From positions 1 to 25,285 of IMG/VR virus record IMGVR_UViG_3300006101_000060: a stretch of DNA of 25,285 nucleotides; one strand, 5' to 3'. The translations under genes were made by a program, and so were the position numbers. Positions 1,389 to 25,285 of this stretch are shown piece after piece; the stretch's first letter is position 1, and each line of letters opens with the position of its first letter. This stretch comes from a virus. The notes below the pieces were generated by a model, which did not search any database, was not told where the DNA came from, and saw only the letters and a program-made list of their open reading frames with translations.

Positions 1389-3698
1389 ATGCCATTTGAA
1401 GAAAGACGCCGAGGTAAACTACCAACTCCTGGTCCGTTCCTAGCTGAAATTACTAGTCATTTAGATCCTAGTTATACAGGTAAGTTAGAAGTATCTTTGA
1501 TTAAAAATCTACAAAGCAATATAGATGATCAAGGACAGACTTATATTGTTAGTTACTTGAATCCTTTTTATGGAGTTACATCTGCACGATTTGAGGGTAA
1601 CAACAGCAGTGATTTTAACGATGTACAAAAAAGTTATGGCATGTGGTTTATTCCGCCGGATGTTGGAACTACCGTTATGGTTATCTTCATTGACGGTGAT
1701 CCTAATCAAGGATATTGGATGGGGTGTGTCCAAGACCCTTTTCAAAATCACATGGTTCCCGGAATTGCAGCCAGCAAACAAACTGCAATGACACAACAAC
1801 AAAAAGATAGATATGGTACAGAATATCTTCCTGTCGCTGAATTCCTCAAGGGTACACAAAAATTAAATGATCCTAATATAGATAAAATTCCTAAACCGAT
1901 ACATCCATTTGCTGACAGATTATTGGCTCAAGGATTATTATTAGATACAGTGAGAGGAGTTACATCGAGCAGTGCTAGAAGAGAACACCCGTCAAATGTA
2001 TTTGGAATATCTACTCCTGGCCCCTTAGATACAAGTACCAATGCTAAGACAGGTAAGATTGGTTATGAGGGTAATCGTCAAGTGCCTGTAAGTAGATTAG
2101 GTGGTAGTACATTTGTCATGGATGATGGTGATGTTAACGGACAAAATGAATTAGTAAGAATTCGTACTCGAACTGGACATCAAATATTGATGCATAACAG
2201 TCAAGATTTAATTTATATTGCTAACTCTAAAGGTACTGCCTGGATAGAAATGACCAGTAATGGTAAGTTAGATATCTATGCCGCAGACAGTGTTAGCATT
2301 CATTCTGAGGCAGATTTTAATTTCCGTGCTGATCGAGATATTAACATCGAAGCAGGGCGTAATCTTAATATGCGAGCCATGGGAAATATGGAAACCAATG
2401 TCAATGGTTATTATTATCTTGTAGTCGATGATTATGGAAAGATTTCATTTAAGAATGATTTAGATGAAACAATAGGCGGATCTCAAAGAACAAATATATC
2501 ACAAGATATTAACATGGCCGCAGGTAAAGATATATTATTTACAGCTGATGCAAGTATGCACCTAAGTGCTGAAACAAATATGTTCCAGGGTTCTGGCGGT
2601 GATTTTAATGTAGGCGCTAATGGAAACTATTATGGCAGTGCGGCAATATATCACATGAATGGACCCGCAGCCGCGGCACCTACTGCGGCAGTTGCGGCCA
2701 CTGCTCCACCTTTATTAAGTATCTATCATTTGCCTAATAGGGATCCTAAGACTGGATGGGCAGTTAACAACAAATATAAAACTACTCCTATCAATAGTAT
2801 CATGCAACGAGTTCCTACACATGAACCTTATGATCAGCATGAGAATATTAATCCTCAGGCATTTAGTTCTACTTCTACAGATGTAACATTACAAAGTCGT
2901 CCAGGGGTGGCACCTAATCCTAATTCTGGTATTGTAGATAGTGCTAATACACCTGAAGTTGTACCAGGTACCTGTGATCCTAAGTATGCTAAAGATATTA
3001 ACAATTCTGCAAGCAAAGCAGGGATAGATGCATTAAAAGCCGCCGCAGAAAAATTAGGATTAACTGCTCCTACAGCAGTGGCAAGTTTATTGGGAATAGC
3101 AGGTGGTGAGAGTCGTTGGAAAGTTGTTACAGAAAGTTTCAACTATACATCTGCCGCAAGATTATTAGAAGTATTTCCCACAGTGTTTAAGGGCGATGCA
3201 AATTTAGCTCAACAATATGTCGGTAATCCTAACAATAGCTTACCTGAATTTTTGTATGGTTATCAAACTGCCAAAGGTAAAGGTCTCGGTAATACACAGG
3301 CAGGAGATGGTGCCGCATTTATTGGCCGTGGATTTATACAATTAACAGGTCGTGCAAATTATGCAAAATACAGTAACTTAATGTTTAGTAAAGGTCTTGT
3401 AAGTTCCGCAACATCATTAACTGACAAACCTGAAATGCTTAATGATTTAACCATAGCCGCACAAGTAAGTGTACTATACTTCTTAGATCGTGTTAAGGTT
3501 CCTCAAACAGATCCTGGATATTTTGAAGCCGCTTGTCGTGCCGTAGGATTTAATACACCCGATATTCATGCTACTAAACAAGGATTTTATCAATGTTTTC
3601 TAGGTCAATTACAAGGCACCGTTGTACAATCCGGTAGTGGAACCATAGTAACAGACAGTTCAGGTAACCCTGTTAAGTCTGGTCAAATAGCGCAATAA
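1389..3698 (+). CDS. 5: gp5-like baseplate hub/tail spike with C-terminal GH19-type cell-wall hydrolase
   Basis: This 769-aa protein is the likely membrane-puncturing spike at the centre of the baseplate. Residues about 14-125 look like the gp5 OB-fold domain, with the motif MWFIPPDVGTTVMVIF (85-100) and then DGDPNQGYWMGCVQDPF. Residues about 250-420 consist of short polar beta repeats (IYAADSVSIHSEADFNF, INIEAGRNLNMRA), as in the triple-stranded beta-helix of T4 gp5 and VgrG proteins. A Pro/Ala linker (about 425-441) and a disordered-looking stretch follow. Residues about 545-740 resemble GH19 chitinase/endolysin domains: AGGES with candidate catalytic Glu574, ESFNY with Glu582, and GRGFIQLTGRANY. 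In T4 gp5 the lysozyme is a GH24 domain placed between the OB fold and the helix; here a different fold sits at the C terminus. A weak AGGA precedes the ATG. The stop overlaps an ATAAATA box ahead of gp25. Confidence 0.9.
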   Translation: MPFEERRRGKLPTPGPFLAEITSHLDPSYTGKLEVSLIKNLQSNIDDQGQTYIVSYLNPFYGVTSARFEGNNSSDFNDVQKSYGMWFIPPDVGTTVMVIFIDGDPNQGYWMGCVQDPFQNHMVPGIAASKQTAMTQQQKDRYGTEYLPVAEFLKGTQKLNDPNIDKIPKPIHPFADRLLAQGLLLDTVRGVTSSSARREHPSNVFGISTPGPLDTSTNAKTGKIGYEGNRQVPVSRLGGSTFVMDDGDVNGQNELVRIRTRTGHQILMHNSQDLIYIANSKGTAWIEMTSNGKLDIYAADSVSIHSEADFNFRADRDINIEAGRNLNMRAMGNMETNVNGYYYLVVDDYGKISFKNDLDETIGGSQRTNISQDINMAAGKDILFTADASMHLSAETNMFQGSGGDFNVGANGNYYGSAAIYHMNGPAAAAPTAAVAATAPPLLSIYHLPNRDPKTGWAVNNKYKTTPINSIMQRVPTHEPYDQHENINPQAFSSTSTDVTLQSRPGVAPNPNSGIVDSANTPEVVPGTCDPKYAKDINNSASKAGIDALKAAAEKLGLTAPTAVASLLGIAGGESRWKVVTESFNYTSAARLLEVFPTVFKGDANLAQQYVGNPNNSLPEFLYGYQTAKGKGLGNTQAGDGAAFIGRGFIQLTGRANYAKYSNLMFSKGLVSSATSLTDKPEMLNDLTIAAQVSVLYFLDRVKVPQTDPGYFEAACRAVGFNTPDIHATKQGFYQCFLGQLQGTVVQSGSGTIVTDSSGNPVKSGQIAQ

Positions 3699-3705: not shown

Positions 3706-4143
3706 ATGGCCTACAAATCACTAGTTATTACCAATGCTAATGCAGTTCCTCAACAACCTGTTAAAACTAGCCAGTTTTATATGGGATTCACCAGTCAAGA
3801 TCCTGCCAATACAACTTCACGATTATATGATCTTGATCTAATTAAGCAAGATATAATAAATCAATTTAATACACGCAAAGGTGAGCGTGTAATGAATCCT
3901 CAATTTGGTAGTATTATTTGGGATGCGTTAATGGAGCCTATGACTGACCAAATCAAACAAGCTCTTAACACAGACATTACAACAATATGTAATAGTGATC
4001 CTAGGGCTATTCCTACGCAGATTAATTTAACAGAATTTCAATCAGGTTATTTACTTGAAGTAACTTTACAATTAGCAGGCACTGATCAATCGAGTAATAT
4101 GATATTGACTTTTGATCAACGTGCCGGGTTAACAGTACAATAA
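3706..4143 (+). CDS. 25: gp25-like baseplate wedge subunit
   Basis: This 145-aa protein belongs to the GPW/gp25 family (T4 gp25 is 132 aa), the small wedge component that helps join the wedge to the hub and sheath in contractile tails. The diagnostic central segment is RKGERVMNPQFGSIIWD at residues 57-73, containing the family's conserved Glu60-Arg61 pair and the NPxFG turn. A helical region before it (YDLDLIKQDIINQF) and the beta-rich C terminus ending in TFDQRAGLTVQ also fit. It lies between the spike and gp6, the same order as V-W-J in P2-type phages. No clear Shine-Dalgarno sequence precedes the ATG. The start is supported by family length and by the stop just upstream. Confidence 0.93.
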   Translation: MAYKSLVITNANAVPQQPVKTSQFYMGFTSQDPANTTSRLYDLDLIKQDIINQFNTRKGERVMNPQFGSIIWDALMEPMTDQIKQALNTDITTICNSDPRAIPTQINLTEFQSGYLLEVTLQLAGTDQSSNMILTFDQRAGLTVQ

Positions 4144-4189: not shown

Positions 4190-7100
4190 ATGACTATTCC
4201 ATCAACAACATCCAAACTACTAGTCACTGAAGACTGGAAAAAAATCTACCAAAGTTTTCGTAATGCTGACTTTCAAAGTTATGATTATGAAACTATTCGT
4301 AGAGTTTTAATTTCTTATCTACAAGAAAATTATCCAGAAGATTTTAATGACTATATTGATAGTAGTGAATATATTGCGTTAGTTGATTTAATAGCATATC
4401 TAGGACAAAACTTAAGTTTTCGTATCGATTTAAATGCTCGTGAAAACTTTTTAGAAACAGCACAACGTCGAGATAGTATTTTACGACTAGCACAGTTAGT
4501 AAGTTATGTTCCTAAACGCAATATTCCTGCCAGCGGATTATTAAAAATCACAGCTATAGCTACAACTGATTCTGTTACAGATTCTACAGGAGTCAATCTA
4601 GCTAATACTACAATTTCTTGGAATGATCCAACAAACACTAATTGGTACAATCAATTTATTAGTATTATAAATTCTGCAATGCCTGCACCTATGACATTTG
4701 GTAAACCCAATGATCATGGAACAATTAACGGCATTATTACAGATCAATATTTGATCAATAGTTCAAATGCTGATGTTCCTATCTATAGTTTTAATAAAAA
4801 TGTCAATGGAACATCTATGTCATTCGAAATTGTTCCTGCTACATTCAAAGGACAAAGCTACATATATGAATCCGCACCTAGTCCCGGAAGTTCTGTAAGT
4901 TTATTATATCAAAACGATAATCAGGGATCAGGTAGTGCTAATACAGGTTTCTTTGCACTATTCAAACAAGGTACGTTAGGATTAAGTAATTTTAGTATCA
5001 CAAATCCTGTTGCCAATGAAATTATTGGCATTAATGTTAGTCAAATTAACAACACTGATGTATGGTTATGGCAATTAAACAATGACGGAACTTATCCTAC
5101 AACACCATGGACTCAGGTTCCTGCTGTAGTAGGTAATAATGTTATCTATAATAGTATCGCCACAAATATACGAAATTTCTATAGTGTTACATCTAGAGAT
5201 CAAGATCAGATTGATTTAAATTTTGCGGATGGTAGTTTTGGTGATTTACCTAAAGGTAATTTTAATTTATATTATCGTCAAAGCAACGGATTAACATATG
5301 CAATTAAACCCGAGCAGATGAGTGGGGTAGTTATTAATGTGCCTTACGTTAATCAATCTGGACAAAATCAAACACTTACCGTAACATTAGGATTACAATA
5401 CACAGTCAGTAATAGTTCGGCACCTGAAACAAATGCTACTATTCAGAGAAATGCACCACAGGCATATTATACGCAAGATCGTATGGTCACAGGTGAAGAT
5501 TATAATATAGCACCATTGACTTATACCAGTAATGTTCTTAAAGTTAAAAGTACTAACAGGGTCAGTAGTGGTATCAGTAAATATTTTGAACTCAGTGATG
5601 TTAGTGGAAAATATAGTTCTACAAATATATTTGCTACTGATGGAATACTTTACAAAGATGTAAATGAGAAAAATTTCAGTTTTAGTTTTTCTAGCAGAAA
5701 TCAAATATTATCTGTAATTAAAAAACAGTTAGAACCTATAATTAATTCACCTGCATTAAAATCTTTTTACATTGATACCTATAGAACCATTGCTCCTATA
5801 ACACTTAATAGTAATTTGGCATCACTACTTTCAAGATGGCATTTAACAAATAGTGTATCGGGTCAAAGTAGAGGATATTTTACATTAGACAAAATTTCAT
5901 CTGGTAATGTTTTACAAGTTCCGATATCAGTAGGAACAACGGTAAATTATCCTTATGCATATATTTCTGCCGGTACTCTAATAAAATTTACTCCACCAGT
6001 AATTAACAATAAACAACAATATTTTTTACCTAATGGAAAAATTACAGCTATAAAAAATAATAAGACTACAGATTATATATGGTCTACTGTAATACAAGTA
6101 ATAGGTGATGGTGCTAATAACGGTCTAGGAAATCTTACCGATGGAACAGGTCCTATTATACTCGGAACACAAATTGATAACGGTGCTATTCCTGTTGAAA
6201 TTGTTCCCCCATTTGTAAGCACATTGTCTTATAGTTTTGAAAACGCATTGATTAATCTATGTCTTACCCAACGTAATTTTGGATTATCATTTAATGTTGT
6301 TACAAGAAGTTGGACAATTATTGAAGATACAAATTTAGATTTAATAAATCCATTTAGTACGACGTACCAAGGCGATGCAAGTAATTCAAATAAAGATTCG
6401 AGTTGGTTAATAGCATTCACATGGGTTGGGGATAGTTATAAAGTTAGATGTAGAATTACAGATTTTATATTTCAAAGTGTAAATCAAACTGGGTTTTATG
6501 TAGACCCAACTGATATTAATTTTGATTTTACAACCAATACAGTTATCAAAGATAAAATAAATGTCCTTGCTATTAATTCGCTACCTGGTGTTAATGTAAC
6601 ATCCCAAGGATTAGGCAAAGATTACAGTTGGCAAGTTGACAATCCTATTATCGAAGTTGACGGGTATACTGACCCTTCAAAAATTTCAGTAAGTTTTTAT
6701 AGTCATCAAGATTCTGGAACAGTCGGGCAAATTATCGACCCTGATGCATTTAACAATATCGTAGGTACAACTGTATCAGGAACATCCGATGGATATGTAA
6801 TGTATCAAATTTCTTCAGATGGAATGACAGTTACTCCTGTTGATAATTCTGCATTTATAGTATTTGGTTCTGAATCTGAAGCCTACACTTATTATAATGA
6901 ATACAATGGATTAGATACAAGTTATCTTTATTATTTTACTTCAACAAATGTTGTAAAGAGTGCAACGTCATCTGCATTTGTATATGAACCAAATTATATT
7001 GTATATCCTGGTCGAGCAGAATTAAATTTTCATTACCTACATAATAGTGGTAATGAGCGTAGGATCGATCCTAGTAAAAGTAATATTATTGATATCTATA

Positions 7101-7648
7101 TGTTAACTGCCGAGTATGATACAGCATTTAGAAATTGGTTGTTAACAGGTTCAGGAACACAACCGTTATCTCCTACTAGTCAAAGTTTAGAAAATAATTA
7201 CTCTAATAGTTTAAATCCTATTAAAACTATCAGTGATGAAATAGTATATCAACCAGTAACTTATAAAGTTTTATTTGGACCTACTGCTGATATTAAACTA
7301 CAAGGAACATTTAAAGCAGTGATTAATCCTACAAGTACCGCAAGTCACAATAGTATTATATCTAGAGTGTTATCTGCAATTAATGAATTTTTTGCATTAG
7401 AGAATTGGGATTTTGGTCAAAGTTTCTATTTCAGTGAGTTATCGACTTATGTAATGAACTTGTTATCTTCGGATATAACAAATTTTATATTGGTGCCAAC
7501 GATTAATAGTTTTGGAAGTTTATATGAAATAAATTGCCAAGATAATGAAATTTTTATTAGCGGTGCTACTGCTGCCGATATCGAAGTTATTGATGCAATT
7601 ACTGCTTCTCAACTAAACACTACATTTATTGTAACTAATGCCGGATAA
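4190..7648 (+). CDS. 6: gp6-like baseplate wedge protein (enlarged)
   Basis: This 1152-aa protein matches T4 gp6, the wedge subunit that forms the inner baseplate ring, and is distantly related to gpJ of P2. The conserved N-terminal block is at residues about 56-113 (EYIALVDLIAYLGQNLSFRI, then LNARENFLETAQRRDS and YVPKRN). QDRMVTGEDYNIAP at about 429-442 corresponds to the conserved DY-containing segment of J-like proteins. The C terminus from about residue 1054 (INEFFALENWDFGQSFYFSE, ILVPTIN) is also gp6-like. T4 gp6 is 660 aa, so nearly 500 residues are extra, mainly between the N-terminal block and the C-terminal domain and rich in Asn, Ser, Tyr and beta-prone sequence. The frame is intact throughout. 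The giant wedge-type gene follows after 5 bp. Confidence 0.92.
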   Translation: MTIPSTTSKLLVTEDWKKIYQSFRNADFQSYDYETIRRVLISYLQENYPEDFNDYIDSSEYIALVDLIAYLGQNLSFRIDLNARENFLETAQRRDSILRLAQLVSYVPKRNIPASGLLKITAIATTDSVTDSTGVNLANTTISWNDPTNTNWYNQFISIINSAMPAPMTFGKPNDHGTINGIITDQYLINSSNADVPIYSFNKNVNGTSMSFEIVPATFKGQSYIYESAPSPGSSVSLLYQNDNQGSGSANTGFFALFKQGTLGLSNFSITNPVANEIIGINVSQINNTDVWLWQLNNDGTYPTTPWTQVPAVVGNNVIYNSIATNIRNFYSVTSRDQDQIDLNFADGSFGDLPKGNFNLYYRQSNGLTYAIKPEQMSGVVINVPYVNQSGQNQTLTVTLGLQYTVSNSSAPETNATIQRNAPQAYYTQDRMVTGEDYNIAPLTYTSNVLKVKSTNRVSSGISKYFELSDVSGKYSSTNIFATDGILYKDVNEKNFSFSFSSRNQILSVIKKQLEPIINSPALKSFYIDTYRTIAPITLNSNLASLLSRWHLTNSVSGQSRGYFTLDKISSGNVLQVPISVGTTVNYPYAYISAGTLIKFTPPVINNKQQYFLPNGKITAIKNNKTTDYIWSTVIQVIGDGANNGLGNLTDGTGPIILGTQIDNGAIPVEIVPPFVSTLSYSFENALINLCLTQRNFGLSFNVVTRSWTIIEDTNLDLINPFSTTYQGDASNSNKDSSWLIAFTWVGDSYKVRCRITDFIFQSVNQTGFYVDPTDINFDFTTNTVIKDKINVLAINSLPGVNVTSQGLGKDYSWQVDNPIIEVDGYTDPSKISVSFYSHQDSGTVGQIIDPDAFNNIVGTTVSGTSDGYVMYQISSDGMTVTPVDNSAFIVFGSESEAYTYYNEYNGLDTSYLYYFTSTNVVKSATSSAFVYEPNYIVYPGRAELNFHYLHNSGNERRIDPSKSNIIDIYMLTAEYDTAFRNWLLTGSGTQPLSPTSQSLENNYSNSLNPIKTISDEIVYQPVTYKVLFGPTADIKLQGTFKAVINPTSTASHNSIISRVLSAINEFFALENWDFGQSFYFSELSTYVMNLLSSDITNFILVPTINSFGSLYEINCQDNEIFISGATAADIEVIDAITASQLNTTFIVTNAG

Positions 7649-10600: not shown

Positions 10601-13600
10601 GACTAGGTCTAAGTGAAATTATTCCTACTTATAATAATGGTGCATTAAAAGATCCTGCTAAAATTTTTGGTCCTACTATAAGCGGAACTTTAATTCAACA
10701 AACTTGGGTTCCAGGAGATCAAGGACCTGCTGAAACCGCATGGCGTAGAAGTAGTCTATGGCCTTATACTGTACAAAAAATATTGGCATTGACCATTCCT
10801 GCAACTTATGCTTCACTAATGTATGATACAAGTCGTATGCAAAAAAACATTGCTGGACAATGGACATACGGTGCCGACGAAACATTCTTACAATTAAATA
10901 ATCTCTATATATCTGGTGAAAATAATAATTTAACTAGCGGTTATAGTGTGTTAGTATCCGAAGTAGGACAGCAACGTACAACTAATTATATTGCTGAACT
11001 TCGCCAAGATTTAAATTATGCCAATTATAATTTATTTTATAAAGTTGGTGGATTTGTTGATCAAAATACACTGCAAGTTATTATAGATGCATATGATCCC
11101 ACAAGTACAGATCCTGGTTCTATATTACCTTCACAAAATTATAAATTAATTTTAGATATAAGTAATCCTATTAGATCTATTAGTATTTCTGGTTTTATAG
11201 TACAACGAACATCTACGGGATATACAATTAAGGGATATGATAGACAAAATCCTTATTTTACATATTATCCTAGTATAAGAAATCTTAATACACCTGCAAT
11301 TACTATAGGAGGTAAAACTGCTCCTTATGTTACATGGGCACCTAGCGGAACATTAGGAGATACTGGATTAAGTAATATAGATATAACTACAGCAAAATCA
11401 GCAGTGGCCGGTAATTTTTATCAGAAAGGGCAGATAGTTGCATATGGTAATAATTATTATAGAGTTATTGTTGCACATCAAGCAGAAGCTACATTCAATC
11501 CGGCCTATTATCAAATACTACAGTCTTTGCCTAGCACAGGTGGTGCTACGGTGCAGATTGCTAGCGGGTTTGCTACTACTGCGTTGCAAGTTCCTTATGG
11601 AACAACTTATTCAAGTATTCAAGAAGTCTATGATTTAATTATAGGATATGGACGATGGATAGTTAATCAAGGATTTATGTTCGATGAATATAATAAAGAT
11701 CTAGGAACAGTGCTTGATTGGAATTTAACAGCCAGTGAATTTTTATATTGGACAACTCAAAATTGGGCATCTGATAGTATTTTAACATTGAGTCCTTTTG
11801 CTAATCAGATAGTTTATCAGGCCACTGATTCTGTTGTGGATAATTTATTTGATGGTTTTTATGACTATAGTATTTTAAAAGCAGATGGCAGTCCATATCC
11901 TCAAAAGAGTTTAAGTATTTCTCGAAACAACGGGGTGTGTACCATTGCTACATTGCCCGACACTGATGGGATTTATTTTGCTAGATTAAATTGCATACAA
12001 AAACAACACGGTATGGTTTTTGATAATGTTGATGATTTTGGTGATGTCATTTATGATATTCAAACCGGCACACGACAAATGCGAATGAAATTAGTTGGCT
12101 TTAAAACCGATGGGTGGAACGGAGATTTCTTTAGTCCTGGATTTGTATATGATAATGTAACTGTGAGTAATTGGGAATCTAATACAAAATATTTGGCAGG
12201 TACCGTAGTATATTGCAACGGTAATTATTATTCAGCAATTAAGAATATTAATCCTAGCGAATATTTTAATTTTACCGATTGGAGCTCATTACCTAAAAAA
12301 CCTACTGCTGGTTTATTACCTAATCTTGATTATAAGATTACTCAGTTCTCTGATTTTTATAGTTTAGATATTGATAACTTTGATGCAGGCCAACAAAAAA
12401 TGGCCCAACATCTTACAGGATATACACCACGTGTTTATCTGAATAATATTTTTACAGATCCTATTTCACAATATAAATTCTATCAAGGATTTATTAAACA
12501 GAAAGGTACTAAAAATTCTATTGATTCATTAAAGAAAGCAACTATACATAATTTACAAGGTCAAGTTAGTTATAATGAAGAATGGGCATTTAGAATTGGT
12601 GAATACGGATCTTATACAACGTATCAGGAATTAGAAGTTCCATTGATTGAAGGAACGTTTTTAGAAAATCCTCAAATTATTAATTTTGTTGATCAAGTAC
12701 CTAATACAGCTGGTAATAGTTTAATACATTATACTATTTCCGATAACCTTACAATTAAACCTAAAAATTATTCTCCTAGTACAACTTTTGCATCAACATC
12801 TGATCAAAGTTCAATGATATTAACACATTCTGGGTATGTTCGATTAGATGATGTTACTGCCACAGCCTATAATGAAAATAGTTTATTAGATATTGCTAAC
12901 AATGGACAATTAAAAGAAGGTGACACAATATGGTTAGGCTTTACTCAAAATGGTAATTGGGACATTTACAGATACACATATAACCCTGCAGGTATTATAG
13001 GAGTATACGTAAGTTTTCCTGTTAGTCAAATTACATTTACCACTTCTGTAAATCATAATCTATCTGTAGGACAACTCATTAGCGTTTCTAATTTTAATAG
13101 TCAGGTAGATGGAATTTATACTGTACAATCTATACCAAAACTCAATCAATTTACAGTAGCAAGTACATTAGCTTCTATTACTAATTCAGAATTATTGTCT
13201 CCGGGTAAATTGTTTGAATTTAAAACTGCAAGGATATCTAATTTTGATAATTTACCTGCCGATAAAGAATTATACAAATTGCCTTACGGTACAAAATTTT
13301 GGATTGATAATACTTTTGAAAATGATCAAAACTGGTCAGTCTATCAAAAAATTAATAATTACAACTCAACAGTAACATATGGACAATTTGTAGATGGTCT
13401 AGGAACTAGTATCAGCAAACGAAGCGGTAGCAATATTGTAGTAATAGGTGCACCAACCTATAATTATAATAATAAACAAGGTGCCGTGTTCCTTTATCAA
13501 CAACAAGGAAATACATTAAAAAATATTTTAAGATATTTTATAGGATCTTCATATAGTTCTACAAACTTTGGTCAAACTGTAGTCTATGATGATATGCCTG

Positions 13601-16600
13601 TAAATTCTACGTCACCCTATGGATTTATATATGCATCAGCTCCAGATGCTAGTAGCGGAGCCGGAGTTGTTAAGGTTAGTACTGTTAATACAAATTCTCA
13701 AGAAGAAGGTTCTAATTTTTACATTACAAATCCAGATCCAACAAATGGATTTTTTGGTACATCTATATGGGTTCAGCGAAAGGCTGAAAATAAACTAGTT
13801 TTTATAGGTGCTCCGGGATCAAATACAGTTACTGGAAAAACTTGGATCTATAAAGTAAATTCAACATTGATATCTAATGCTGTGGCGGTGATTGATCACA
13901 ATATAAGTTACACAATAGGCAGTCAATGGGGATATTCTATTAGTGGCGCAGATGATGTATCTTATATTGCTATTAGTGCTCCGGGTTATACAGATAATAC
14001 TGGTATTGTTTCGGTATTTAAAAATGATATAAATTATGTACAAACTATAAGTTCTCCTTTTGGTGTTGGAGATAGATTTGGTCAGGTAGTTTCTATGTCA
14101 CCGATGGGAGATTATCTGTTTATATCTGCACCGAACGTAGTGAATAGTGATAATTCTATAGGTGCGGTTGCAATATATAATTTTGTTGATGGTTTATTTG
14201 TATTAGAATCAATTTTAGAAAATCCTGTAGCAGGTTCTTTAATGAAGTTTGGTTCGGCTATTGATATTAATACTACTTCAAATACTTTGGTAATTTCTGC
14301 ATTAGGAATTAATGCTACATTTCCAACTACTGTTGATAGCGGCAATACTACCTTTGACAATGGAATTACTGGATTTGTAGGAACAGAAACAAATTCTGGT
14401 GCAGTATATATGTACCATAGAAATTATCAAAGATTTATTTTGTCGCAAGAATTAACGGCATCTACAATTGCAATAACATCTGGAACAGATTTTGGAAGTA
14501 GTATAGCAATTGATGATGGAGTTGTATTTGTAGGTGCTCCAGCCGTTGATAACGATGCTGTAACTGGCGGAATATATCAATTTAATCAAATAGACTTAAC
14601 AACTAATAGTTTAAGTAAAATTAGAAATTTTGAAAATTTAGTTATACCTAATACTGTAGAAAAAGTATCATTGATTGATACTTACAACGAAGATATTTTA
14701 CAATATCTTGATGTCATTGATCCGTTGAAGGGGAAAATAGCAGGTATTGCTGAACAAGAATTAACTTATAAATTAATCAGCGATCCTGCAATATACTCTC
14801 TTGGACTTGCTGGAGTTAATGTAGATACAAATACTAACTGGTTAGATGACCATGTGGGAGAATTGTGGTGGGATCTTAGCACTGCAAAATATGTATGGTA
14901 CGAACAAAGCGATCTCGAATATCGTAAAAATAATTGGGGTAAATTATTTCCGGGTGCTACTATTGATGTCTACGAGTGGGTTGGTTCTACTCTGCTACCT
15001 AGTGAATGGAGTTCCCAAGCAGATACTACTCAGGGATTAACATTAGGTATCAGCGGACAACCTAAATTTCCAGACAACAGTATTGTCAGCGTTAAACAAG
15101 TCTATGACAACATAACTAATTCTTATAGTAACGTTTATTATTACTGGGTTAAGAATTCAATTATTGTACCTAATGCTAAAAATCGTAGAAAGAGCAGTTA
15201 CGAAGTTGCCAGTATAATTGCCGATCCTACTGCTTACGGATTAGAGTTTGCGGCATTTATTTCGCCTGATGCTGTGGCGTTGAGCAATGTTAGTTCTTTA
15301 TTAGTTGGTGAAAATATCAGTCTTAATATTGGACAAGATAGAGTTGCGGCTTCAATGACTAATTCTATACCTAAACATACCGAATGGTTGATTTTACAAG
15401 AAAATAATGAGAATAGCAGTCCAAATGCATTGTTAGAAAAGAAATTAATTGATAGTTTGTTAGGACATGATAGTGTAGGAAATCCTGTTCCTGATCCGGC
15501 GTTGAGTTTAAGAACACGATATGGAATTGGAATTAGACCTCGACAAACATTCTTTAAAGATAGAATTACCGCTATAAGAAATGTTGTTGAATTTACTAAC
15601 AATGTTTTAATCAACGAACTTATTACAGGTAATTATGATTTTATTAATCTTAATGCACAAGAACAAATTCCAAATAGATATCTAAACACTTATGATAAAA
15701 TTGTTGAAGATAATAATGAATTAACTTTAATAGATACAACGGTATTTCAACAAGCAAAAATTCAATGTACAGTCAATGATAATGGTCAAGTTATTTCTGC
15801 TAATATTATAAATCCTGGATTTGGATACGGCACGCTGAATTCTGTTGAAGGTGGGTATCAAGGCCCGACATTTATATATCCAGAATTTGGTAGCGGGATT
15901 AATTTATCTACAGTTGTCGATAATACCGGTGCTGTTATTGATGTAATAATAGAAAATGGTGGTACTGGATATATCAATAATTTTATTATTACCTCTAGAC
16001 CACAATCAGTGATCGTTGTTAGCGATGATATAAACAACGGAGGATGGACACAATACGTTTATGATTATTCTTCTAAAAACTGGATACGTTTTAAAACTCA
16101 AAGTTACAATACTACTTTATATTGGAATTATGTAGATTGGTCTAGTAGTGATTACGATCAGTATAGAATATACTCTTCGATTATAGGTAGTTCCTATGAG
16201 TTAAGTGAGTTAACTATAACGCCCGGTCAGTATATTAAAATTAACAATAGTGGAAATGGAAATTATATAGTTATAGAAGCATTAGATCCTAGTATTCAAG
16301 GAACATACGGACAGGGATTTAATTTAGTATATGCACAAAATGGTACAATACAATTATCAAACAGTATTTGGAATAGAGCAAATAGTACATATGGATTTGA
16401 CTATGTTAAATCTTATGACCAAACACTGTGGGATCAAACTCCTGATCTTGAATTAAAATATATCTTAACAGCACTAAAAGAAAACATATTCATTAATTCA
16501 TTAAAAATTAACTGGAATTTATTATTTTTTACCGCTGTTAGGTATGCGTTGTCGGAACAAAAATTATTAGACTGGGCTTTTAAAACATCTTTTATAAATG

Positions 16601-19776: not shown

Positions 19777-20418
19777 ATGGAAATTAAAAAAATGAGATCT
19801 CAATCTAGCAATCAACCAAAAGATCAAGGACTTGTGTCTGTAAAAGGACATATTAAAATATTTGATCCTAAAACAAACGAAGTTTTCATTGATAAACCCA
19901 ATGCAATACATTATGAAAATTTTAGTTTGGCATTGGCAAATAGTATCAGTAATCAAGGTTTTGGTACAATTGCTGAAATGGATTTTGGTAACGGTGGAAC
20001 TAGAGTAGATGATACTGGTATCATAACTTACTTAACTCCTAATGTAATAGGATCTAGTGCCAGTCTATATAATCAAACTTATTTAAAGGTTGTTGATTCC
20101 CAACAACCTACTGATTTAGATCCTTCTAGAAATTTTATGGAAGTTCGTCATGTAGCAGGTGCATACTATAGTGATATATTAGTTAGTTGTTTACTTGATT
20201 TTGGAGAACCAAATGGTCAACAAGCATTTGATAATGAAACAAATTCAAATGGTACATTTGTTTTTGACGAGCTAGGTTTACGATCTTATAGTCCGGATGG
20301 TCCAGGAACAGGGTTATTATTGACTCATGTTATTTTCCACCCTGTACAAAAATCTTTAAATCGAATGATACAAATTGATTATACAGTTCGTGTACAATCT
20401 CTTACTAACGGGATGTAA
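19777..20418 (+). CDS. Conserved virion/baseplate protein, 213 aa
   Basis: This soluble, beta-rich protein is of a type I associate with T4-like phages of aquatic bacteria. Characteristic stretches are GHIKIFDPKTNEVFIDKPNA, IHYENFSLALANSI, EMDFGNGGTRVDDTGIITYL, FVFDELGLRSYS, and LLTHVIFHPVQKSLNRMIQI near the end. It follows the giant wedge-type gene, the place of gene 8 in T4, but T4 gp8 is 334 aa and I see no motif that proves homology, so no symbol is given. Two in-frame ATGs compete, at 19777 and 19792. Neither has a Shine-Dalgarno sequence, and the late-promoter-like box just upstream may favour the second. The first 20 or so residues are polar and probably flexible. It is likely a wedge, connector or fibre-attachment protein, by context. 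Confidence 0.8.
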   Translation: MEIKKMRSQSSNQPKDQGLVSVKGHIKIFDPKTNEVFIDKPNAIHYENFSLALANSISNQGFGTIAEMDFGNGGTRVDDTGIITYLTPNVIGSSASLYNQTYLKVVDSQQPTDLDPSRNFMEVRHVAGAYYSDILVSCLLDFGEPNGQQAFDNETNSNGTFVFDELGLRSYSPDGPGTGLLLTHVIFHPVQKSLNRMIQIDYTVRVQSLTNGM

Positions 20419-21558: not shown

Positions 21559-22383
21559 TGGCAGTCAAGTGAAGTATTTGGTGCCGCAGGATCATCTTGG
21601 GATTTTAATAAAATTTCAAGCCTTGCAGGGTCACAATCTTCTATCAAAGCTCTGTATAATAACAATACATTTATTATATTCTCGGATCAAACTGAATACT
21701 CTGCATTTAATGATACATTGGTATCTAGCACAACATTTCCAATAATTAAAAAAGGTATAACATTGCCTGGTGCAGATCCTATAACAGGAAGCAGTGCCGC
21801 ATCAACATCTACTGGATACCTGTTATGGGGAACAGCCGCTGAAGCAATTACAACCAAAGGTGTTACAGTTACTACAACATCTTCCAATAGTACATATTAT
21901 ATTCCTTTTGCTGATGGTACTACTGGCAACCCAAGTTTTTATACGAATGGTTCTTTCAATTATAATCCAAACACTAATATTCTTCAAGTAACTGCATCTG
22001 CCGCATTGTATGCTGATCTAGCAGAAAGATATGAAGCTGATGCTATTTACGAACCCGGAACCGTTTTAGTCATTGGTGGCTCTAAAGAAGTCACTACTAC
22101 AACAAAATATGCCGATACAAGGGTAGCGGGTATAGTAAGTAAAAACCCAGCCTATATGATGAATTCAGAGGCAGGAACCGACGAAACTCACCCCTATATT
22201 GCCTTAAAAGGCCGTGTTCCTTGCAAGGTTGTAGGCAGTATATTAAAAGGTGATCTTTTAGTTACTAGTACTCGTCTAGGACATGCTGAGAAAGCAAATG
22301 GATTTTTGTCAGGCGCTATAATTGGAAAAGCCCTCGAAGATAACTTCGAAGGCTCTGCCGTTATTGAAGTGCTAGTAGTCTAA
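21196..22383 (+). CDS. Tail fibre-like protein with Peptidase_G2-like C-terminal domain (paralogue 2)
   Basis: The 395-aa product shares its first 120 or so residues with the preceding protein, including paired units GQLWFNSALQQLQICY (64-79) and GSLWWDTGNNLLKIY (103-117). The central part is Ser/Thr/Asn-rich. From about residue 270 it carries a separate domain: ADLAERYEADAIYEPGTVLV, VAGIVSKNPAYMM, YIALKGRVPCKVVG, LKGDLLVTST and GAIIGKALE. This layout resembles the Peptidase_G2 or related C-terminal domains of phage fibres, some of which act as intramolecular chaperones that cleave themselves; I cannot identify catalytic residues here. Its TAA stop overlaps the thyA stop by 3-4 bases, tail to tail. 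The last 55 bp also encode the presumed terminator of the opposite operon. Confidence 0.78.
   Translation: MPYILTKSNGTILATVQDATVDNTTSLTFIGRNYSGYGQAVEENFLHLLENFSNTTAPTNPIQGQLWFNSALQQLQICYDGSNFTNASNATVSNVKPSDPITGSLWWDTGNNLLKIYVEGSWQSSEVFGAAGSSWDFNKISSLAGSQSSIKALYNNNTFIIFSDQTEYSAFNDTLVSSTTFPIIKKGITLPGADPITGSSAASTSTGYLLWGTAAEAITTKGVTVTTTSSNSTYYIPFADGTTGNPSFYTNGSFNYNPNTNILQVTASAALYADLAERYEADAIYEPGTVLVIGGSKEVTTTTKYADTRVAGIVSKNPAYMMNSEAGTDETHPYIALKGRVPCKVVGSILKGDLLVTSTRLGHAEKANGFLSGAIIGKALEDNFEGSAVIEVLVV
22329..22354 (-). terminator. Candidate intrinsic terminator of the thyA operon, inside the opposite tail gene
   Basis: Positions 22329-22339 pair with 22344-22354 around the 4-base loop at 22340-22343. 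Read on the - strand the stem is 11 bp with one G-U wobble, and the RNA continues GGGCUUUUCC, a short U-run. On the + strand the same site has a C-A mismatch and no U-run, so it suits - strand termination. It lies about 26 bases beyond the thyA stop. Confidence 0.55.
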
Positions 22384-23267
22384 ACAGCCATTGGTGCTGT
22401 TATAGCTTCGTGACTTTGATAATTCTCTAATTTAATATCTTCCATTTCAAAATTCATTATTACAGATACATCTGGATTTAACACCAATGTAGGTGCTGGA
22501 AATGGTTTACGACTTAATTGCTCTTGAACTTGATCAAAGTGATTTTTATAAATGTGAGCATCGCCTACACTGATAATCAAATCACCGACTTCTAAATTAC
22601 ATACCTGTGCAATCATATGTGTGAACAATGCATATGAAGCAATATTAAAGGGAATTCCCAAGAACATGTCAGCTGATCTTTGATACATATGACAACTTAA
22701 CTTGCCATTGTTAACCCAGAACTGGCTTAATATGTGACAAGGCGGAAGTGCCATTAATTCTAATTCGCCGGGGTTCCACGCTGTAAGAATGTGTCTACGA
22801 CTGTACGGGTCTTCTTTTATACCGGCAATTAAATCTATTAATTGATCGTGATTCTGTAGAACAACTTTATTAATACGAATAAGTGGCTTGCGCCATCTAC
22901 GCCATTGTACTCCATATATGCGACCTAAATCGCCTATACTTCGTTTAAGTTTTTTAGCCGTCCAATATGGTGCAAGAGCATTGTCTGTCCATATTGTTTT
23001 CTTGGACGAATTGCGATCACCGTGTAATATTTCACGCAATCTTAATTCATCACCACTACCTTCGATAAACCAAAGTAATTCACTTACGCAGGCTCGCCAT
23101 GCTAGTTTTTTAGTAGTGACAGCAGGAAAGCCTTCAGTCAAATCAAAACGCATTTGAAGACCAAAGATACTGCGAGTTCCTGTTCCTGTGCGATCAGGCC
23201 GGTCTTCACCGTTTTCTAAAATGTCTTTTAATGCGTTGAGATATTCTTGTTCAGAAGTTGTGTTCAT
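22380..23267 (-). CDS. thyA: Thymidylate synthase (ThyA type)
   Basis: This 295-aa enzyme converts dUMP and methylene-tetrahydrofolate to dTMP and dihydrofolate, supplying thymidylate for phage DNA synthesis. Family motifs are complete: RTGTGT (26-31), LPPCHILSQFWV with the nucleophile Cys177, YQRSADMFLGIPFNIASYAL (195-214), GDAHIYKNH (235-243), and a C-terminal PMAV closing segment. SRRHILTAWNP (156-166) provides the dUMP phosphate-binding arginines. The length exceeds the 264 aa of E. coli ThyA, as in many family members. The ATG overlaps the upstream TGA as ATGA, suggesting translational coupling to the 216-aa gene. No independent ribosome-binding site is obvious. It is convergent with the tail genes, their stop codons overlapping. 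T4 also encodes ThyA (td), but elsewhere in its genome. Confidence 0.97.
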   Translation of the reverse strand: MNTTSEQEYLNALKDILENGEDRPDRTGTGTRSIFGLQMRFDLTEGFPAVTTKKLAWRACVSELLWFIEGSGDELRLREILHGDRNSSKKTIWTDNALAPYWTAKKLKRSIGDLGRIYGVQWRRWRKPLIRINKVVLQNHDQLIDLIAGIKEDPYSRRHILTAWNPGELELMALPPCHILSQFWVNNGKLSCHMYQRSADMFLGIPFNIASYALFTHMIAQVCNLEVGDLIISVGDAHIYKNHFDQVQEQLSRKPFPAPTLVLNPDVSVIMNFEMEDIKLENYQSHEAITAPMAV

Positions 23268-24466: not shown

Positions 24467-25285
24467 TTATTTATAATGTGCAGTTTGGCCAAATGGTGCA
24501 ATTATTGTTTCATTGCCATGTACAATAAACAAGGTTTCGCAGTAATTCTCATCACCCCAGCTTCCGCAAGGATATCCATCTGTAAACATGATAAAGCGTT
24601 TTGGTTCAATACCCTCATTTTTCATGAAATTCCAATTAGCTTCAAAGTCAGTACCGCCGCCACCTTTACATTCATAATCCATAATCTCATCTGATGTATC
24701 GCCGGTAAATTTAGCATAGTTGTATACTTCAGTATCAAAACACCAAAGATCTAATTTGAAATCTTTGTATTCATCCATAATGCCTTTAACTTCACTTAAA
24801 AAGTCATTGGCTTGTTTGTTGCTGATACTTCCGGACATGTCAATAGCTACACTAACATCAATGGTTTCTTCGTTTAACATACCTGGTAGGATAGCACCAC
24901 TATGTTGTGATTTACGATTTGGACGGCTAAAACTAAAGTTGCTTTTTAGAATACTTTGGATATTCATACGCAACATCTGACGCCAATCCATTTTAGGTTC
25001 TGTAAACACTTGGATGTAACGAGCAATACCTGCAGGCACTTTACCAGCACCTGCTGATTGAGCGGCCGCTACCATTGCTTCTTTGATCTCATCACGGATC
25101 TGTTTCTTTTCTTCTGCGGTGAGTTTAGGACGACCTTTACCATCTTTGTCTTCGTCTCCTTCACCGGAGCCTTCTCCCTCACCTTCTCCATCTAAGTGAT
25201 CATCTAGCAATTCACCTAGCTCGCTGATATCAATTTTGATAGCATCTTTTTCCAAGTCTGCATAAATCTCTTCATAGCTCATGCC
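24467..25285 (-). CDS. VWA-domain protein, DUF2201/COG3864 type, 5' end outside window (partial)
   Basis: The visible 272 or so residues are the C-terminal part. The Met at 25282 is preceded in frame by a Gly codon that runs off the window, and GMSYEEIYADLEKD looks like an internal segment of this family. The N-terminal metallopeptidase-like part would therefore be missing here. Counting from that Met: an acidic Gly/Glu/Asp-rich linker (about 27-50), the conserved MDWRQMLRMNI (98-108), then a VWA domain with metal-site (MIDAS) motifs DMSGS (148-152), GGGGTDF (207-213) and FTDGYP (233-238). The likely role is metal-dependent protein binding, often with a MoxR-type AAA+ ATPase encoded next door; no such gene is visible. 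Its stop overlaps the late promoter of the next unit. Confidence 0.85.
   Translation of the reverse strand, partial: GMSYEEIYADLEKDAIKIDISELGELLDDHLDGEGEGEGSGEGDEDKDGKGRPKLTAEEKKQIRDEIKEAMVAAAQSAGAGKVPAGIARYIQVFTEPKMDWRQMLRMNIQSILKSNFSFSRPNRKSQHSGAILPGMLNEETIDVSVAIDMSGSISNKQANDFLSEVKGIMDEYKDFKLDLWCFDTEVYNYAKFTGDTSDEIMDYECKGGGGTDFEANWNFMKNEGIEPKRFIMFTDGYPCGSWGDENYCETLFIVHGNETIIAPFGQTAHYK
24468..24475 (-). promoter_or_regulatory. T4-type late promoter box for the 92-aa to thyA unit
   Basis: The + strand reads TATTTATA, so the - strand carries a perfect TATAAATA, the T4 late promoter -10 box recognised by sigma-gp55. It ends 14 bases before the ATG at 24453, leaving room for a short leader, and overlaps the VWA gene stop. 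Late transcription also needs phage sigma and clamp proteins, which are not in this window. Confidence 0.65.

Follow-up and report, generated by a model that had tools for sequence, protein, structure and literature searches.

An FG-GAP propeller resembling the integrin alpha head at an ancient site of domain exchange in a giant tail protein of uncultured phages

The window analyzed here is the whole of the 25,285-base virus record IMGVR_UViG_3300006101_000060, which belongs to an uncultured giant bacterial virus. A further IMG/VR contig, 3300025723_000095 (37 kb), is 100% identical to the window over the regions compared. The window harbors a run of tail genes in the order gp5-like, gp25-like and gp6-like, followed by an ORF of 4034 aa and three smaller conserved ORFs (Table 1). 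Beyond the tail genes lie a gene for thymidylate synthase and one for a VWA-like/metallopeptidase-like protein.

Table 1. Features of the window, with positions counted from its first base
Feature	Position	Strand	Basis or remark
gp5-like baseplate hub / tail lysozyme	1389..3698	+	PHROG 13211, E=2e-52
gp25-like baseplate wedge subunit	3706..4143	+	PHROG 43, E=1.2e-17
gp6-like baseplate wedge subunit, directly 5' of the giant gene	4190..7648	+	PHROG 10646, E=7e-281
Giant tail/baseplate-associated protein with propeller, 4034 aa	7654..19758	+	Intact ORF; PHROG 10938
N-side slot border, residues 1880-1909 (FWID...W-VY...NY)	13291..13380	+	Predicted strands
Seven-bladed FG-GAP (integrin-like) beta-propeller, residues 1910-2311	13381..14586	+	Motifs, Pfam, profile, fold
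Blade 1 unit (LGTSIS...VIGAP)	13399..13455	+	Motif scan
Blade 2 unit (FGQTV...YASA)	13567..13641	+	Motif scan
Blade 3 unit (FGTSI...FIGAP)	13753..13815	+	Motif scan
Blade 4 unit (WGYSI...AISAP)	13927..13983	+	Motif scan
Blade 5 unit (FGQVV...FISAP)	14077..14133	+	Motif scan
Blade 6 unit (FGSAI...VISAL), then long loop with conserved TTFD motif	14248..14304	+	Motif scan, alignment
Blade 7 unit (FGSSI...FVGAP)	14491..14541	+	Motif scan
C-side slot border, residues 2312-2345, leading into conserved backbone	14587..14688	+	
213-aa protein, conserved neighbor 3' of the giant gene	19777..20418	+	Present in propeller-less loci too
Thymidylate synthase gene, convergent to the tail genes	22380..23267	-	PF00303, E=7e-104
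VWA-like/metallopeptidase-like protein	24467..25282	-	DUF2201 and DUF2201_N

The backbone of the giant protein matches the profile of PHROG 10938, a virion structural protein, in four stretches (E=1.7e-302), and relatives at about 25-35% identity are encoded by RaK2, 121Q, PA5oct, Atu_ph07, SCTP-2 and Phosso. The PA5oct homologue, gp355, carries an ESI-MS/MS note in its own record. The order gp25-gp6-giant gene is conserved, and gp6 adjoins the giant gene in 67 of the 73 loci showing both. This synteny, together with the detection of a homologue in the virion, supports an association of the giant protein with the baseplate. The giant gene lies directly after gp6, which is the position of gp7 in T4, and from this gene order we infer that its product may be a wedge subunit. 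Alignment of three backbone profiles with T4 gp7 by hhalign gave probabilities of at most 0.3%, searches of the backbone profiles against the PDB returned no convincing relatives and none of relevance, and a model of the C-side backbone (residues 2325-3060; pLDDT 81, pTM 0.56) had no PDB fold match at E<=0.001; homology of the backbone to T4 gp7 is thus unsupported by hhalign, PDB profiles or fold search. The first-pass annotation had placed the propeller in a baseplate wedge protein. Its setting in a tail protein beside gp25 and gp6 holds, whereas membership of the wedge is a matter of gene order only. When genome contigs were scanned with the backbone no relative was found, so that the scan gave no clue to the host. 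One of two backbone stretches with a sub-threshold match to CBM_5_12, a sugar-binding module, lies at positions 11407-11502 of the window (residues 1252-1283).

A motif scan of the giant protein located seven FG...GAP units, which begin at residues 1916, 1972, 2034, 2092, 2142, 2199 and 2280 and span residues 1916-2296, and none in the rest of the 4034-aa protein. When the propeller region was shuffled 5000 times, a mean of 0.02 units and a maximum of two were obtained. In two of the blade units LG or WG stands in for the opening FG, and in blade 6 SAL is found where GAP is expected. In a check against the FG-GAP/Cage pattern, the conserved Gly was present in 7/7 blades and the Gly-to-Pro spacing was 14-18 in five blades and ambiguous in blade 2, while blade 6 has no Pro at the expected position. 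Pfam FG-GAP_2 (PF14312) was matched in the window segment with 26.3 and 24.8 bits (curated cut-off 23) and by 49 of 54 propeller homologues (E<=0.01). Matches to Pfam HisK_sensor within the propeller stayed under the curated cut-off and were treated as chance similarity to the repeat. In a PDB profile search with about 54 homologues the top matches were to integrin alpha (alpha-4 at E=1.2e-15), and the three non-integrin matches had E>=0.011.

The AlphaFold2 model obtained with the homologue alignment was all-beta (pLDDT 88.9, pTM 0.87). In the PDB fold search all 50 matches listed were integrin alpha chains, which covered the full query with E-values down to 7e-15 and a TM of about 0.6. These matches and the pTM suggest that the propeller ring is closed, and a strand predicted in the N-side border may close blade 7. 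Units, Pfam, profile and predicted fold therefore agree on the seven-bladed FG-GAP propeller that had been proposed from the first reading of the sequence, and the likeness to integrin alpha proposed along with it is borne out by the best PDB matches in both profile and fold comparison. The true domain is slightly wider than first reported and comprises about residues 1900-2327. Among the matches in a viral library the best were mostly from giant viruses of eukaryotes, several of them named FG-GAP, and a few were phage proteins, including the 'hemagglutinin' of Atu_ph07 (A0A2L0UZX4) and a virion protein of cyanophage S-TIM5 (H6WG31).

With integrin alpha (alpha-4, alpha-V) the phage propeller thus shares its seven FG-GAP blades, in addition to the best profile and fold matches. 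Unlike integrin alpha, it has no DxDxDG loops, its short strand 1-2 loops have, for most blades, about 4-5 aa, and it resides inside a viral tail protein, in which no thigh or calf Pfam domain and no membrane segment was found and the flanks are PHROG 10938 virion-protein sequence. Even with a loose pattern, DxDxDG calcium loops were not detected in the window; among the homologues (n=54) the strict pattern occurred in none and the loose pattern somewhere in 20. Such loops are present in blades 4/5-7 of integrins and in all seven blades of described bacterial integrin-type propellers (Chouhan et al., 2011, PMC3192720). The latter resemble the phage propeller in having seven repeats, of an FG-GAP/Cage pattern that is incompletely recognizable in the phage domain, and FG-GAP_2 matches above the cut-off, but differ from it in this calcium motif. 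Since DxDxDG loops are lacking, we filed the domain as an FG-GAP propeller resembling the integrin alpha head and not as a strict integrin-type propeller.

Between conserved borders, the 62 closest IMG/VR relatives hold about 370-1150 aa, with FG-GAP-type sequence, in the slot that the propeller occupies. Relative to the window protein, RaK2 and 121Q lack about 440 aa of this stretch and have a nearly empty slot; the stretch is shorter by 322 and 375 aa in PA5oct and a Vibrio phage and by 142 aa in SCTP-2, and about 880 aa longer in Atu_ph07 and Phosso. The slots of PA5oct, SCTP-2 and Atu_ph07/Phosso hold other sequence, and a Pfam scan of the cultured relatives apart from Phosso gp294 gave no FG-GAP match in the slot. 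The insert of SCTP-2, which by eye resembled a LamG/jelly-roll domain, was not confirmed as such by Pfam or PDB sequence search. No propeller was found in this slot among the isolates of the phage collection or in the seven cultured relatives examined. RaK2 ORF070w, 121Q gp582 and PA5oct gp355 (PHROG 10938), with their homologous backbones at the same place after gp6, differ from the window protein in this respect. The eukaryotic giant virus proteins, A0A2L0UZX4, H6WG31 and the Phosso proteins gp107 and gp108, with FG-GAP or similar propellers, are separate proteins outside the slot. The two Phosso proteins (3162 and 3692 aa) are adjacent giants (PV764938.1, 48338-68978; L095, 2339-22979) with FG-/GAP-type motifs throughout, and may be chains of several propellers.

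In a wider set of 90 loci the propeller profile was matched in 80 and not in 10, and one of the latter (L176) still has a Pfam FG-GAP_2 match. The slot of L167 (5715-8018) and L168 is filled by a YHYH domain (PF14240, E=4e-29 in L167) instead of the propeller; the W-VY and VD borders recur around the YHYH domain of L167, and W-VY weakly in RaK2/121Q. Inserts of about 600 aa in L074, L076, L078 and L083 apparently follow strand 2 of blade 2, and judged from the alignment the strand 2-3 loop of this blade is their most likely place. Weak CBM5/12-like stretches, below the Pfam cut-off, are found beside the propeller in several relatives including L076 and L083. A single in-frame TAG interrupts the giant gene in L003 (6159-6161; the same contig as L008, 5639-5641) and in L084 (9662-9664), where it falls inside the propeller; sequencing error, real mutation and amber readthrough are indistinguishable as its cause. 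The slot accepts widely differing sequence, with a length of anything between about 105 aa and about 1400-1500 aa, and this would suit a propeller that is a spacer or stabilizing filler of an enlarged baseplate with no specific partner. We consider this improbable, since FG-GAP motifs are retained at 20-40% identity, which argues for selection for an intact fold, and at least one swap leads to another compact domain.

A tree of the C-side backbone was quickly computed from loci fetched by similarity to backbone queries; it contains several long branches and was rooted at the midpoint. One clade of this tree (SH-aLRT 99) had the propeller in 79 of its 80 rows, the YHYH lineage being the exception, while all 12 rows outside the clade lacked it. 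Inside the clade the segment continues through the relatives with no boundary, whereas against the outgroups boundaries are visible. Propeller divergence tracked that of the two flanks (Mantel r 0.82 and 0.84; 59 rows), and among these rows no outlying pairs suggestive of a swap between relatives were observed. On the congruent divergence and the tree, recent swapping among close relatives was rejected. The simplest reading would be one ancient gain (or a loss outside the clade) and one replacement. The suggestion of the first-pass annotation that the propeller may be a modular, swappable insertion is therefore to be divided: modularity is evident at depth, in the shortened slots of RaK2/121Q and the YHYH domain of L167/L168, but recent or frequent swapping is not. 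The site is an old exchange slot and not a frequently swapped cassette, and the propeller is vertically inherited in the clade.

The propeller was less conserved than its surroundings, with a median identity of 44% compared to 63 and 66% for the flanks (100 pairs of moderately close relatives). In integrins, ligands are bound at the face formed by the strand 2-3 and 4-1 loops. Length variation in the phage propeller was much greater in the 2-3 and 4-1 loops than in the 1-2 and 3-4 loops (p=0.0015), the loop classes being derived from predicted secondary structure and integrin topology, not from model coordinates. Point substitutions showed no concentration at the putative ligand face, so that only length variation speaks for such a face; a host-arms-race signal in the form of substitutions on one face was not seen, and the host-arms-race reading is weakened accordingly.

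With evenly balanced confidence, we favor the reading that the propeller serves as a displayed binding module, whose most likely partner is a molecule on the host surface. It is suggested by the fold and sequence, the differing contents of the slot, the faster evolution of the propeller, the loop-length variation on the integrin-like ligand face and the weak CBM5/12-like stretches, and also by two precedents. The first, phiKZ gp131C (PDB 4GBF) of a large myophage, has seven blades and is reported to lie at the periphery of the baseplate, with unproven function, and in phi11 gp45 the propeller is a proposed sugar-binding domain in a phage baseplate (PMC4901313). Both differ from the window protein in being separate proteins, and gp45 is moreover five-bladed and the trimeric RBP of a siphophage; 4GBF was absent from the sequence-profile matches (E<=1) and from the 50 fold matches listed. 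In the proposed mechanism the slot of the giant protein would point outward from the baseplate, the flanking backbone would keep the propeller in place, and the loops on one face would contact a host glycan or protein during adsorption, a mode of action proposed for other tail-tip propellers of phages. The slot domain can be replaced without loss of the neighboring tail genes. The assignment of these loops to a ligand face is borrowed from integrins, and receptor binding is plausible.

The chief rival, possible though rather unlikely in our judgment, is that the propeller is an assembly platform which docks tail fibers or peripheral baseplate proteins and makes no host contact. Propellers are commonly protein-interaction scaffolds, and a near-universal, vertically inherited propeller in the clade suits a structural role as well, as does a presumed ligand face without concentrated substitutions. 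On the other hand, the downstream neighbors of 213, 255 and 395 aa persist in loci without the propeller, which is therefore not their obligatory dock, and an exposed position would agree with the large insertions in the slot and with its stretches of weak similarity to sugar-binding modules. An enzyme acting on surface polysaccharides, be it the propeller or its accompanying domains, is highly improbable, even though some propellers are glycosidases or lyases and propellers occur in phage endosialidases (PMC4901313). Most columns conserved in at least 90% of the homologues are Gly, Pro or structural positions of aromatic or FG type, among which no catalytic set is obvious. No integrin-type FG-GAP propeller is known to be an enzyme.

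Taken together, the FG-GAP propeller is real and well supported as a fold; it occupies an ancient slot for domain exchange in the giant tail protein and is widespread in uncultured phages. In the literature searched, which lay mostly outside subscription journals, no description was found of an FG-GAP (integrin-like) propeller in a phage baseplate, tail-fiber or wedge-adjacent giant protein. Propellers at phage tail tips were already known; what is added is an FG-GAP propeller in a wedge-adjacent giant protein. The slot is a defined site that can be compared between proteins several thousand residues long; domains come and go there on a persistent backbone, and the role of giant baseplate proteins thereby becomes testable. 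As a tentative extension of the binding-module reading, uncultured giant phages of one large lineage might use an integrin-like propeller in the exchange slot as a main or secondary host-binding module, and exchange of the slot content between propeller, YHYH and other domains might mark changes of adsorption target.
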